64,000 bases of DNA, taken from NCBI RefSeq assembly GCF_900112525.1, contig NZ_FOMD01000004.1, positions 434,001 through 498,000 of the forward strand. The letters run 5' to 3'. The position numbers were made by a program, and so were the translations under genes. Under the pieces are notes generated by a model. It worked only from the letters and a program-made list of their open reading frames with translations. It did no database searches and was not told where the DNA came from. Below are positions 30,070-36,840 of this stretch, in pieces (the stretch's first letter is position 1; the number at the start of each line of letters is the position of its first letter). Source of the DNA: Klenkia taihuensis. GTDB taxonomy: Bacteria; Actinomycetota; Actinomycetes; Mycobacteriales; Geodermatophilaceae.

Positions 30070-31404
30070 ATGCGCACTGGCACCTTCGCCCGCGCCGTCG
30101 CCGTGTCCGGTGCCGTCCTGCTCGCTGCGACCGCCTGTGGCGGCGGCAGCGACAGCGACGACGCCGCGGCCACCGGCGGCGGGGACGGCGGCAGCAAGCA
30201 GGTCAACGTCTACGGCACCGACGGCAACATGGGCAACGCCCTGGGTGAGGACTTCACCGAGGAGGGCGCCCTGGCCGGCATGAAGGGCACCACGCCCCTC
30301 ACCGAGCTGGGGTCGGACTTCACCGACCGGCTGCTCGAGGTCGACCCGGAGCTGCAGGACTACAACTACGCCGGTGAGTCCTACGACGCGGTCATCATCA
30401 CCGCGCTGGCGGCGCAGGCCGCGGGCAGCAACCAGGCCACCGTGTTCGGGCCCTACGTCAACGGCATGACCGTCGGCGGCGACAAGTGCTCGGACTTCCA
30501 GGCCTGCCTGGACATCATCAACGCCGGCGGGAACGTCGACTACGACGGCATCACCGGTCCGCTGAGCTTCACCGACGCCGGTGAGCCGGCCGAGGCGTCC
30601 TTCGGCCTGCTGCAGTTCGGCGAGGACAACCAGCTCGACGACAGCCTGACCGAGTTCGTGCTCGCCGGTGACGAGGCCAACGCCACCACCGACGAAGGCC
30701 CGGCCTACGCCGCTCCCGGCACCACCGGCCAGACGCTGACCATCGGCACCCTGCTGCCGCTGACCGGCAACCTGGCCTTCCTCGGCCCGCCGGAGGTCGC
30801 CGGCGTCCAGCTGGCGATCAACGACATCAACGCCGCCGGTGGCGTCTTCGGCACCGACGTGGCCCTCGTCGAGGGTGACTCCGGTGACGCCTCGACCGAC
30901 ACCGCCACCCAGACCGTGGACCGCCTGCTGCAGTCGGGCGTCAACGCGATCATCGGTGCGGCGTCCTCGGGCGTGAGCCTCACCGTCATCGACGCCATCA
31001 CCGGCGCCGGTGTCCTGGAGTTCTCCCCGGCGAACACCTCCGACCAGTTCACCACCTACAACGACCAGGGGCTGTACTTCCGCACCGCGCCCCCGGACAC
31101 GCTGCAGGCCCGTGCGCTGGCCGACCTGATCGGCGCCGACGGCAACAACACGGTCGGGATCCTCGCGATCAACGACCCGTACGGCACCGGCCTGGCCGAG
31201 AACACCCTGAACAACCTGGTGAGCGACGGTCTGTCCGAGGACAGCATCCAGTCGATCACCTACGACCCGCAGGCCGCCAACTTCGACTCCGAGGTGCAGC
31301 GGATGGTGGACTTCAACCCCGACGCCATCGTGGTGATCGGCTTCGAGGAGTCCTCGCGGATCATCCAGGCGCTCAACGCCCAGGGCATCGGCCCCCAGCG
31401 CTGA
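30070..31404 (+). CDS. Branched-chain amino-acid-type ABC binding lipoprotein with circularly permuted lobes
   Basis: The 444-residue lipoprotein has a Tat-less signal ending at lipobox-like LAATAC (Cys23), so Lgt should lipidate it. The mature protein has the material of one LivJ/LivK-type binding protein in reversed order. Residues ~44-215 (VYGTDGNMGNALG ... GPLSFTDAGEPAEASFG) are the normal C-terminal lobe; after a linker (TTDEGPAYAAPGTTG), residues 221-444 are the normal N-terminal lobe (LTIGTLLPLTGNLAFLG ... VIGFEESSRIIQALNAQGIG). The chain ends exactly where VNVYGTDG would normally follow. ATG 30070 has GGGAG upstream. Its permease operon (livHMGF) is on the opposite strand about 1 kb away. 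Confidence 0.88.
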   Translation: MRTGTFARAVAVSGAVLLAATACGGGSDSDDAAATGGGDGGSKQVNVYGTDGNMGNALGEDFTEEGALAGMKGTTPLTELGSDFTDRLLEVDPELQDYNYAGESYDAVIITALAAQAAGSNQATVFGPYVNGMTVGGDKCSDFQACLDIINAGGNVDYDGITGPLSFTDAGEPAEASFGLLQFGEDNQLDDSLTEFVLAGDEANATTDEGPAYAAPGTTGQTLTIGTLLPLTGNLAFLGPPEVAGVQLAINDINAAGGVFGTDVALVEGDSGDASTDTATQTVDRLLQSGVNAIIGAASSGVSLTVIDAITGAGVLEFSPANTSDQFTTYNDQGLYFRTAPPDTLQARALADLIGADGNNTVGILAINDPYGTGLAENTLNNLVSDGLSEDSIQSITYDPQAANFDSEVQRMVDFNPDAIVVIGFEESSRIIQALNAQGIGPQR

Positions 31405-31456
31405 GCGCTGAGACCGATCCAGCGCTGAGCGCTGAGACCGATGCAGCGCTGATCTA
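31396..31456 (+). repeat. 24-bp tandem repeat, about 2.5 copies, across the stop codon
   Basis: Units begin at 31396, 31420 and 31444 (CAGCGCTGAGCGCTGAGACC plus GATC or GATG). The first unit contains the stop codon of the binding protein and the later ones place further stops. Inside each unit GCGCTGA is itself doubled. It sits at the point where the missing C-terminal lobe would have followed. Confidence 0.8.
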
Positions 31457-31471
31457 GCCGACAGCACACGG

Positions 31472-31505
31472 AACGGCCCGGCCCCCGCGAGGGAGCCGGG
31501 CCGTT
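31472..31505. terminator. Bidirectional terminator
   Basis: A perfect 11-bp stem (31472-31482 with 31495-31505) flanked by AA and TT lies between the binding-protein gene and the convergent membrane protein gene. It can serve both strands. Confidence 0.75.
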
Positions 31506-31511
31506 CTGCGT

Positions 31512-32401: not shown

Positions 32402-33249
32402 TCACTGGGCCTTGGCGAGGGTGCCCAGGTAGAGCTCGACGACCTTGGGGTCGTTCATCAGCGCCTTGCCCTTGTCGGTGTAGGCGTTGCGGCCCTGGTC
32501 GAGGACGTAGCCGCGGTCGCAGATCTGCAGGCACCGCCGGGCGTTCTGCTCGACCATGATGATCGAGACCCCGGTGGCGTTGATCCGCCGGCAGCGGATG
32601 AACACCTCGTCCTGGTAGGCCGGCGACAGACCGGCCGAGGGCTCGTCGAGCAGCAGCACCGACGGGTCCATCATCAGCGCCCGGCCCATGGCCACCATCT
32701 GGCGCTCACCGCCCGACAGCGCCCCGGCCTTGCCGTTGCGCCGCTCGCCGAGCAGCGGGAACAGGTCGATGACGTAGTCGAAGCGCTCCTTGAACGTCTT
32801 GGGCCGCAGGTAGACGCCCATCTGCATGTTCTCCGCGATGGTGAGCGAGGGGAACACGTTGTTGTTCTGCGGCACGTAGCCCACGCCCAGCTGCACCAGC
32901 TTGTGCGCCGGGGCCGAGGTGATGTCCTCCCCGCGCAGGGTCACCGCGCCCGACCGCACGGGGATGAGCCCGAACAGGGTCTTGAGCAGCGTGGACTTCC
33001 CGGCGCCGTTGGGGCCGATGATGCCCACCAGCTCGCCGTCCTGCAGGTAGAAGTCACAGCCCCGCAGGATGTTGACCCCGGGTACGTAGCCGGCGACCAG
33101 GTCGTCGGCGCGCACCAGCGCACCCTCGGCGAGCTTGAGGTGCTCCTCGCGGGTGGCGGCCTTCTCGGCCGGCGACAGCTCGCCGGTCGTCGCGGTGTCG
33201 GCGCGGGTCAGGTCCTCGCCGGACTCGTCGACCTCGAACAACGGGTCGC

Positions 33250-33253
<4 letters not shown>
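32402..33253 (-). CDS. livF: Branched-chain amino-acid ABC transporter, ATPase LivF
   Basis: The 283-residue ATPase powers branched-chain amino-acid (or related amide) import. It shows Walker A IIGPNGAGKSTLLKT, Q-loop YVPQNNNVFPSLTIAENM, signature LSGGERQMVAMGRAL, Walker B LLLDEPSAGLSP and H-loop replaced by the LivF-typical VEQNARRCLQI. It is about 45 residues longer than standard LivF because of an acidic N-terminal extension (EVDESGEDLTRADTATTG) before the fold. It overlaps the livG stop (ATGA). Confidence 0.93.
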
Positions 33254-34240
<987 letters not shown>

Positions 34241-34251
<11 letters not shown>

Positions 34252-35239
34252 CGAGCATCACCTCTCGTCGGTCACCGAAGATGCCCTGCGGCCGGAAGAC
34301 CAGCAGGAGCATCAACCCGATGCCGACCAGCACGAAACGGATCTGGGCCACGTCGGTGGAGGACAGCAGGGCGTCGGGGATGACGCCGTTGCTGATCAGT
34401 GCCCGCAGGAAGGTGTCGGCGAACTGCAGGATGAACAGCAGGATGATCGACCCGACGACCGGGCCGAGCACCCGCGCCGCGCCACCCAGGATGAGGGCGG
34501 CGTAGGCGAGGAACGTGTTCGCGTTCTGGTACTGGTCGGGGATGGCCGACCCGGTGCCGACGGCGTAGACCATGCCGCCCAGCGCACCGAAGACCGCGCC
34601 GAGGACCAGGGCCTGCATCTTGTAGTTGTAGACGTTCTTGCCCAGCGCGCGGACGGCGTCCTCGTCCTCGCGGATGGCCTTGAGCACGCGGCCCCAGGGG
34701 CTGCGCATGAGCGCCCAGACCAGCAGGCAGGACAGCGCCACCAGGACCCAGCCGACCACGGCCACCCACAGCTCGCCGCCGCTCCACGAGGTGCCCAGGA
34801 TCCGGTAGCGGGTCTGGGTGTCCCAGGGGGCCAGGGCGATGAAGCTCTGGTTGAACGCCGACAGGCCGCGGGTGCCGTTGGTGACCGGTGTGGCCGAGAC
34901 CGACCGGAACAGCAGCCGCAGGCCCTCGGCCGTGGCGATCGTGACGATCGCCAGGTAGTCCGCCCGCAGCCGCAGCGTGGGCAGGCCCAGCAGCAGGGCC
35001 AGGACGACCGCCGCGGCGATGCCGACGAGCACGCCGACCCAGAAGGGCAGGCCCCACTGGCTGACGGAGATGGCGATGCCGAACCCGCCCAGCATGGCGA
35101 AGGCGATCTGGCCGAAGTTGAGCAGGCCGGTGTAGCCGAAGTGGACGTTGATCCCGATGGCCAGCAGCGCGAAGAAGATGGCCTGGAACCCCAGGCCGGA
35201 CTTCACGCCGATGAGCAGGGCGTCGATCAGGTCGCTCAT
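34241..35239 (-). CDS. livM: Branched-chain amino-acid ABC transporter permease LivM
   Basis: The 332-residue permease has about ten helices. LivM hallmarks are GYTGLLNFGQIAFAMLGGF near the start, [25 protein letters not shown], the ATPase-coupling loop GRVLKAIREDEDAVRALGKN, and a C-terminal LVFRPQGIFG. It pairs with LivH in the membrane. It begins 4 bases after the livH stop and ends inside livG. Confidence 0.94.
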
Positions 35240-35243
35240 CGGC

Positions 35244-36539
35244 TCAACCGATCCGGGCCCGGCTGCCCAGGATGCCCTGGGGCCGGATGACGAGGATGAC
35301 GATCAAGAGGAGCAGACCTCCGACGTACTTGGTGTCGTCCGGGATGACCAGGGTGGACATCTGGACGAACACACCGATGATGACGCTCCCGACCAGGGCG
35401 CCGTAGGCGGTGCCCAGGCCACCGAGGGTGACGCCGGCGAACATGAGCAGCAGCAGGCGGAAACCCATGTCCCACTGCACCTGGTCGGACAGGCCGAGCA
35501 GCACGCCGCCGAGGGCCGCGAGCGCGCCGCCCATCATCCAGACGACCAGGATGACCCGGTTGACGTCGATGCCGGAGGACGCGGCCAGGTCGCGGTTGTC
35601 CGAGACGGCCCGCATGGCCTTGCCGATCTTGGTGCGCTGCAGCATGAGGGCGACCAGCACCAGGACCACGACGGCGATGACGATGGTCGCCAGCGCCCGG
35701 TTGGTGAGGGTGAAGACGCCGTAGTCCACCGCTCGCTGCGACTGGTACTCGGCGTAGGGGTTGGAGAACCCGCCGTAGACGATCTGGATGGCGTAGCGCA
35801 GCAGCAGCGACAGGCCGATCGAGACCACGAGGGCGGCGACGAGCCCGGTGCCGCGCCGGCGCAGCGGCCGCCACAGCGCCAGCTCGTTGAGCGCACCCAC
35901 CCCGGCGCCGACCACCATGGCGATGAGCGTGGCCGCGATCAGCGGCACCCCGCCCTGCACGTTGACGTACCAGGCGACGATCGCGCCGATGGTGACCAGC
36001 TCGCCGTGCGCGAAGTTGGTGAGCCCGGTGGTCCCGAAGATCAGCGACAGGCCGACCGCGCAGACGGCGATGATGAGGCCGAACCGCAGGCCGTCGACCA
36101 GCAGCTGCACGGCGCGGATGGTGCTGCCGCCGCCGCCGCTGGAGCCGTCCTGCAGGCCGAAGTTGACCGGTTGCTGCCGGCCGGTGTCGACGGTGACCGT
36201 GCGCTCGGCGCCCTGGGGGCCCAGCGTCACGCCGTCGGGCAGCGACTCGGCGTCGATGCTGACCGTGTACTGGCCCGCGCCGTCGGGCAGCGGGATGTCG
36301 AACCGCCCGTCGTCGTCGGTCTCCACCGAGTCGACCTCGTCACCGGAGGAGTCGGTGACGGTGACCTCGATGCCGGCGATGGGGCCCGAGCGGCTGGTCT
36401 GCAGGGTGCCGCGGACGGACTCGCCCTCGGCGCTGGCGATGCCCGCGGGCAGCAGCGCGGCGAAGACGGCGGCCAGGATGCCGACGAGCATCGTCAGGGC
36501 GAACGCCCGGCGACCTCGCCCACCCGACCGGGCCCGCAC
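35244..36539 (-). CDS. livH: LivH permease with an N-terminal secreted beta-sandwich-like domain
   Basis: The 431-residue product has an N-terminal signal segment (residues ~1-36: basic region, then LTMLVGILAAVFAALLPAGIASA). An extracytoplasmic domain (~37-125) follows, with the carboxypeptidase-regulatory/transthyretin-like pattern: GPIAGIEVTVTDSSG, SVETDDDGRFDIPLPDGAGQYTVSID. After a Ser/Gly linker comes a complete LivH permease (GLIIAVCAVGLSLIFGTTGLTNFAHGELVTIGA ... VLVIRPQGILG). Usual LivH is ~290 residues with no such domain. GTG 36539 has AGGGGG 7 bases upstream and puts the signal at the N-terminus; GTG 36626 is an alternative. Confidence 0.9.
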   Translation of the reverse strand: MRARSGGRGRRAFALTMLVGILAAVFAALLPAGIASAEGESVRGTLQTSRSGPIAGIEVTVTDSSGDEVDSVETDDDGRFDIPLPDGAGQYTVSIDAESLPDGVTLGPQGAERTVTVDTGRQQPVNFGLQDGSSGGGGSTIRAVQLLVDGLRFGLIIAVCAVGLSLIFGTTGLTNFAHGELVTIGAIVAWYVNVQGGVPLIAATLIAMVVGAGVGALNELALWRPLRRRGTGLVAALVVSIGLSLLLRYAIQIVYGGFSNPYAEYQSQRAVDYGVFTLTNRALATIVIAVVVLVLVALMLQRTKIGKAMRAVSDNRDLAASSGIDVNRVILVVWMMGGALAALGGVLLGLSDQVQWDMGFRLLLLMFAGVTLGGLGTAYGALVGSVIIGVFVQMSTLVIPDDTKYVGGLLLLIVILVIRPQGILGSRARIG

Positions 36540-36840
36540 GCGCCGGCCCCCTGCTCGTGGGTCCGGGGACCCCGGGGGGCCCGTCCGGGCACCGTGCACA
36601 TGGGCACGGTGGGGTGCGTGCGTCACTCGACCTCCTGGGCCGTCGGGGGGAGTGCGGACGCCGGTGCCCGGCCGGGGGTGGCCCGGTGGACAGCCGGTGA
36701 CCGCAGGACGATCGGGTGCGGACCCTAACCCACCTGTGTGTCGGTCCTGGGTCCTCGTACGTGTCCCGTGACACAACTGCGACCTGCCGGACCGGGCGCA
36801 GCCGGTCCGACCCGGGCCCGCTCGGGTCCGGGCGACCTGC
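36540..36840. promoter_or_regulatory. livH promoter region with a small palindrome
   Basis: No gene is seen in these 301 bases. On the minus strand TAGGGT (36722-36727) is the likely -10 box of livHMGF, giving a leader of about 175 bases to the chosen start. About 35 bases upstream of it a palindrome GTGTC-CCGT-GACAC (36761-36774) could bind a regulator. The rest is GC-rich and unremarkable. Confidence 0.45.

Follow-up and report, generated by a model that had tools for sequence, protein, structure and literature searches.

The window, a stretch of 64,000 nucleotides of Klenkia taihuensis DNA, contains a gene for a type I substrate-binding lipoprotein whose two segments stand in the reverse of the canonical HAAT/LivJ-LivK chain order. 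The gene is a single open reading frame, as an earlier note on the same DNA had stated, and lies tail-to-tail with livF-livG-livM-livH (32402-36653), that is, it is encoded together with LivHMGF-type permease and ATPase genes (Table 1). The signal peptide ends in a cysteine at residue 23, which we take from its motif to be the lipobox cysteine, and a glycine-rich spacer separates it from segment A, which opens KQVNVYGTDGNMGN and is about 163 residues long. A linker follows, and then segment B (about 224 residues), which opens GQTLTIGTLLPLTG and closes QGIGPQR. The permuted gene's stop codon lies within an exact 24-base tandem repeat (CCAGCGCTGAGCGCTGAGACCGAT; 31395-31442). Between the two convergent genes there is an inverted repeat (31466-31511; 21-base arms, 86% complementary, 4-base spacing), for which a terminator scan gave no terminator.

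Table 1 Features of the permuted binding-protein gene and the adjoining liv genes
Feature	Coordinates	Strand	Remarks
Permuted type I substrate-binding lipoprotein gene, 444 aa	30070..31404	+	single open frame
Signal peptide and presumed lipobox cysteine (residues 1-23, ...LLAATAC)	30070..30138	+	read from sequence
Segment A (residues 43-205), normally C-terminal ~40% of fold; strand VYGTDG first	30196..30684	+	
Linker (residues ~206-219), old C-terminus to old N-terminus	30685..30726	+	
Segment B (residues 220-444), normally N-terminal ~60% of fold; ...QGIGPQR last, at cut	30727..31401	+	
LivF-like ATPase	32402..33352	-	start approximate; convergent with binding-protein gene
LivG-like ATPase	33250..34251	-	
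LivM-like permease	34241..35239	-	
LivH-like permease, N-terminal CarboxypepD_reg domain	35244..36653	-	start approximate

Searching the whole protein against Pfam placed residues 222-442 on positions 1-217 of the 343 of Peripla_BP_6 (E = 7.7e-33). Segment A searched alone (30196-30726) gave no Peripla_BP_6 match and aligned to positions 226-350 of the 353 of ANF_receptor (E = 3e-6), the back part of that profile, which is related to Peripla_BP_6. As segment A corresponds to the back of a profile and segment B to the front, the halves are complementary, and the possibility that the protein carries the same half twice is ruled out by these positions; this was the separate-profile check that the earlier note had proposed. 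The segment limits given there (44-215 and 221-444) needed adjusting, mainly for the first, and now stand at about 43-205 and 220-444 with a linker at about 206-219. The match to the Peripla_BP_6/HAAT family extends across the whole fold when ANF_receptor and the conventional orthologues described below are taken for segment A, and these profiles and orthologues uphold the LivJ/LivK-type (HAAT) assignment. The branched-chain specificity claimed with it does not follow: the protein scores 63.4 bits with NCBIfam PRK15404 (LivK proper), where the cut-off is 477, and permutation and distance both depress this score.

In the closest conventional relatives, segment B runs to ...GIGP and, after a few residues, into VYGTDGN... 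and then segment A. The permuted protein meets its stop codon two residues past GIGP, and its folded part opens with the strand expected next, so that the chain ends where its front segment would continue (...GIGPQR against conventional GIGP then VYGTDGN), just as had been noticed from the sequence. We kept 80 loci out of 129 relatives, with records including Klenkia, Geodermatophilus, Blastococcus and Modestobacter; 65 have the same permuted order, 1 has a second permuted form and 14 are conventional. Compared with these 14 (L105-L118; from Mycolicibacterium, Pseudonocardia, Millisia, an Egibacteraceae MAG and others), segment A is 43-62% and segment B 58-65% identical, in the opposite order, which together with the order of the Pfam profiles establishes that the swapped arrangement is real. 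For structure work we built a permuted alignment from the window's gene and 36 of the 65 first-form loci, and a conventional alignment from 13 of the 14 conventional loci; hhalign joined the two in one collinear block, 177-401 to 12-236. The VYGTDGN aspartate is among many residues that are invariant in the 37 aligned sequences.

The permuted order is widespread. A near full-length match in that order was found in 92 of 112 Geodermatophilaceae genomes, the window's own included, with no near full-length match in the other 20, some of which are incomplete; the earlier impression of an order special to this genome therefore falls, and the proposed search of related genomes for the same order gave a positive answer. 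An assembly artefact or chimeric contig, which the earlier note had raised and argued against, is ruled out by these relatives and is left with practically no probability, as the genomes with the permuted order include single-contig assemblies (for example G079 and G022) and the window's own genome has a diverged second copy in the same order (69% identical, on another contig, G000:C10:317121-318449; L006, L168). This genome also has four full-length conventional Peripla_BP_6 matches; two further weak matches, L007 and L008, look from their frames to be an iron-alcohol-dehydrogenase-like protein and a ribose-type binding protein. Three other genomes of the family (G085, G104 and G088; loci L165, L166 and L167) carry an additional, distant conventional homologue, 41-45% identical in segment B, which sits in a co-directional livHMGF-SBP array. 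In 9 pairwise comparisons of permuted genes dN/dS was 0.29-0.51, below 1 in all 9, indicating that the gene is maintained.

We next considered the genomic setting across a wider set of open reading frames, sorted by segment order with profiles of segments A and B into 146 permuted, 6 second-form and 70 conventional. A tail-to-tail livF lies within 4 kb of 121 of the 146, 5 of the 6 and 58 of the 70, respectively, counts in which contig or locus ends cut some off and in which the 146 include repeats (90 are distinct by segment B). Permuted and conventional genes share this layout, so the rearrangement happened in, or was exchanged into, the orthologous place. The LivH frame used for the window has its CarboxypepD_reg domain at residues 79-168, ahead of the membrane part; by eye, LivH frames with a long N-terminus mostly match this domain (not L187, L189, L195 and L201), and conventional loci carry it as well as permuted ones, which rules out a tie between the domain and the permutation.

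Family f16, in which an order-level search found at least 67 genomes with a permuted match, differs in its setting. Eight f16 loci examined (L149, L151-L156 and L158) have no liv genes within about 6 kb on either side, and none occurs in the fetched flanks of the second permuted copy in the window's own genome (L168). Nine f16 genomes were searched for LivH: G408 and G312 have a close LivH elsewhere with its own conventional binding protein beside it, and G426, G396, G273, G169, G193, G223 and G303 gave no LivH match above 36% identity. These loci would fit a decayed or non-transport relative, a receptor or decoy and not the importer's binding subunit. Such a role is quite unlikely for the window's protein, given that in Geodermatophilaceae, f49, f39 and f41 the liv locus has the permuted gene as its binding-protein gene, and given its low dN/dS and its many invariant residues, the VYGTDGN aspartate included.

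Structure prediction, another check proposed in the earlier note, supported the permutation and corrected the account of it. The AlphaFold model of the permuted protein (pLDDT 88.9, pTM 0.89) opens with the strand after the cut and closes with the helix before it, and its list of secondary-structure elements is essentially the conventional list rotated. Mapped onto the model of the conventional orthologue L110 (pLDDT 85.8), the cut comes after helix 218-227 and before strand 237-241. Foldseek alignment, which is collinear, covered 208-282 columns at TMq 0.33-0.49 for the permuted model among the 50 PDB matches listed, and 365-434 columns at TMq 0.60-0.77 for the conventional model. The claim of a LivJ/LivK-type circular permutation thus stands on profile order, conventional orthologues about 60% identical at the same locus, the confidently predicted rotated fold and the family-wide order.

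The idea that the two segments are the two lobes did not survive. The end of segment B corresponds approximately to residue 219 of LivJ (1z15), with the cut there or just after, behind a helix and ahead of the strand VYGTD; by the lobe limits of LivJ, this residue is presumably inside the C-lobe, which would place the cut within that lobe and not between lobes. Type I binding proteins usually have three lobe cross-overs (PMC4990184). Three such cross-overs and a cut within one lobe make the picture of two swapped whole lobes too simple. The lipid tether would shift from the N-lobe to the C-lobe. In alignments the VYGTDGN aspartate pairs with that of ...GGDG... (LivJ entry 4gnr) and that of ...SGDG... 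(3ipc), a residue that in this family probably contacts the amino group of the ligand; the new folded start lies a few residues ahead of it.

To examine how often the order changed, we computed trees of permuted and conventional genes. The first has 83 rows (31 permuted, including L102, and 52 conventional) drawn from 200 two-segment open reading frames and uses both segments over 383 columns; most Geodermatophilaceae, L101, L105 and L150 were omitted. A second, of 88 rows out of 222 open reading frames, takes in more of the phylum and omits most Geodermatophilaceae and 17 named loci that were redundant or long-branched (L192). Mapping segment order onto the 83-row tree takes 5 changes to account for the permuted rows, and well-supported branches force 4 of these. 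Trees of segment A alone and of segment B alone likewise give 5 changes, 4 forced. Requiring all permuted rows to form one clade made the fit 258.6 log units worse on the 83-row tree (p-AU = 4.6e-69) and 276.9 log units worse on the 88-row tree (p = 1.5e-38); the subgroups in all other clade tests were named after inspection of the trees.

The permuted rows occupy separate places: Geodermatophilaceae with one f13 MAG; f16; f49 with f39; L171 (f41); and the second form. Support for f49 with f39 is 94/94 (83 rows) and 100/96 (88 rows). L171, a lineage resting on one f41 genome, groups with two conventional f41 genes in a set that has starred support. Both lineages lie among conventional genes in the other half of the 88-row tree, with starred support, and placing f49, f39 and L171 together as a clade is rejected (p = 1.9e-5). 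A clade of Geodermatophilaceae and f16 was not rejected on the 83-row tree (p-AU = 0.479), and these two groups may share one event; the f16 stem is long (0.92-1.03 in these trees) and some rows have an odd letter make-up. Adding the second form to that clade is disfavoured, with p = 0.0028 when L102 alone represents it and p = 0.023 with five rows. The position of the cut in the first form is nearly constant: in the 24 first-form rows of the 88-row tree the C-terminus lies 2-4 residues past the aligned end of segment B, and the ends mostly read ...GIGP plus two or three residues.

In the second form the cut lies about 20-22 residues further on. Its folded part opens near ...LxGMKGT (GVRGT in L209) and ends like ...YGTDGNMGNALGENFDAGK. 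A phylum search of 346 genomes, 54 with a match at 1e-30, found it in G790, G987, G970, G874 and G932, in addition to the Acidimicrobiales MAG locus L102, all outside the window's class. L209 was first form by the profile rule and was reassigned from its ends. Five of the six second-form rows make one clade (100/98), with L209 apart; a clade of all six is weakly rejected (p = 0.036). The L209 gene stands head-to-head with liv genes. In L102 the two segments are separated by an out-of-frame stretch, which is either a sequencing error or decay, and the frames of the other five run through without a stop.

Thus, the permutation seems to have recurred, three or four times near the same loop and also at a second site outside the window's class. 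Stated more fully, one orthologous importer gene of Actinomycetota was permuted independently at least four times, by two neighbouring cuts that flank the strand of a conserved, probably ligand-contacting aspartate; we hold this to be probable, with appreciable room for doubt. The alternative is that the gene was permuted once, long ago, and that the conventional order was later restored several times or that horizontally acquired conventional genes took the place of permuted ones. It gains from the fact that the tree method is blind to gain versus loss, from the acceptable Geodermatophilaceae and f16 clade, and from a 32-row set (95/85) of the 88-row tree, which unites five second-form rows, Geodermatophilaceae, f16 and a mycobacterial-type conventional clade and could be explained by a single gain, a single reversal and a displaced cut. 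Set against this are the rejection of a single permuted clade by 259-277 log units, the extra steps demanded by f49 with f39 and by L171 in the other half of the tree, the different cut of the second form, and the disfavoured clade of that form with Geodermatophilaceae and f16. Moreover, every return would need another rearrangement at the exact original ends. We therefore regard a single ancient permutation as rather unlikely.

Circular permutations ordinarily arise by tandem duplication, fusion and trimming, and an origin of the window's gene by tandem duplication and deletion is plausible. No duplication intermediate, with two copies of one segment in frame, was found among 224 open reading frames with a segment match of at least 25 bits. 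In a comparison of linkers with 16 N-terminal spacers of sister conventional proteins, 17 of 73 distinct Geodermatophilaceae-type linkers and 3 of 9 from f16 reached shuffle p ≤ 0.05, against 2 of 73 for the N-terminal spacers of the permuted proteins used as a control, the rows being related and not independent. When all 70 conventional spacers were used, the counts were 0 of 6 for f49/f39, 0 of 1 for L171 and 1 of 6 for the second form. The resemblance is suggestive at best that the linker may be a remnant of the conventional N-terminal spacer.

A fusion of two different genes, with segments of different origins, would also yield a swapped order, and without duplicating one gene. Fusion was suggested for part of Tp0684 by its authors (PMC4990184), and for L102 and L169 the nearest conventional rows differ between the segment A and segment B trees. 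The segment-only trees nevertheless give an equal number of separated groups, and the nearest rows of the window's gene are its Geodermatophilaceae relatives in both, which makes fusion very unlikely.

Together, these results lead us to a reading to which we give a probability of about 0.84: the permuted gene encodes the lipid-anchored binding protein of the neighbouring LivHMGF-type (HAAT) importer and was permuted by duplication, recurrently. In the orthologous liv locus a duplication, tandem or partial, would have fused the old C- and N-termini, after which the outer pieces would have been lost, and such events would have taken place several times in Actinomycetota, presumably because the cut stretch tolerates new chain ends. 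As in other Venus-flytrap proteins, the permuted protein would close around its ligand, and it would dock to LivHM as the conventional orthologues do, since only the chain ends and the tether would have moved. The lipid anchor would now lead into the strand of the VYGTDGN aspartate, probably part of the C-lobe, and not into the first strand of the N-lobe.

Most known natural circular permutations are single old events that lack a closely related unpermuted counterpart. DNA methyltransferases are another family with independent recurrent permutations; they differ from the window protein in having another fold and in not being a transporter subunit. Conventional LivJ/LivK-type proteins (4gnr, 3ipc and 1z15) share the fold family of the window protein by sequence and predicted structure, and differ in segment order, in the positions of both chain ends and in the linker. 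The orthologues L105-L118 have the same locus layout where it is visible, with their segments in ordinary LivJ/LivK order.

The nearest precedent is Tp0684 (MglB-2) of Treponema pallidum, a natural circular permutation of a type I sugar-binding protein for which the subclass 'Type Ic / Cluster Bc' was proposed (PMC4990184). There the N-lobe has its first three strands close to the C-terminus, the strand order of the C-lobe is unaffected, and a fourth lobe cross-over results (PMC4990184). Tp0684 resembles the window protein as a naturally permuted, lipid-tethered type I binding protein attributed to an ABC importer, and its authors too discuss how the permutation alters where the tether sits with respect to the pocket (PMC4990184). 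It belongs to the sugar (MglB) family whereas the window protein is LivJ-like, and its cut moves three N-lobe strands whereas ours falls near LivJ residue 219, after a helix and before what is probably a C-lobe strand, and is not the Type Ic cut. Conventional orthologues about 60% identical at the same locus, and apparent recurrence, further set the window protein apart from Tp0684. Judged from titles and the beginnings of abstracts, in literature coverage with most subscription journals outside it, Tp0684 was the sole natural binding-protein permutation recognised. What is new is a permuted LivJ-like protein with a cut different from that of Tp0684; natural permutation of a type I protein is itself known.

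If the recurrence is true, repetition at one spot suggests either that selection favoured an anchor on the other lobe or that the structure has a hot spot where new chain ends arise, and permuted and unpermuted orthologues at one locus amount to a natural experiment on binding-protein topology. Such pairs would permit direct tests of what chain topology and the place of the anchor do to ligand closure and to docking with an ABC importer, as well as tests of how permutations arise. Collinear profiles may detect only part of a permuted protein, as Peripla_BP_6 did here.
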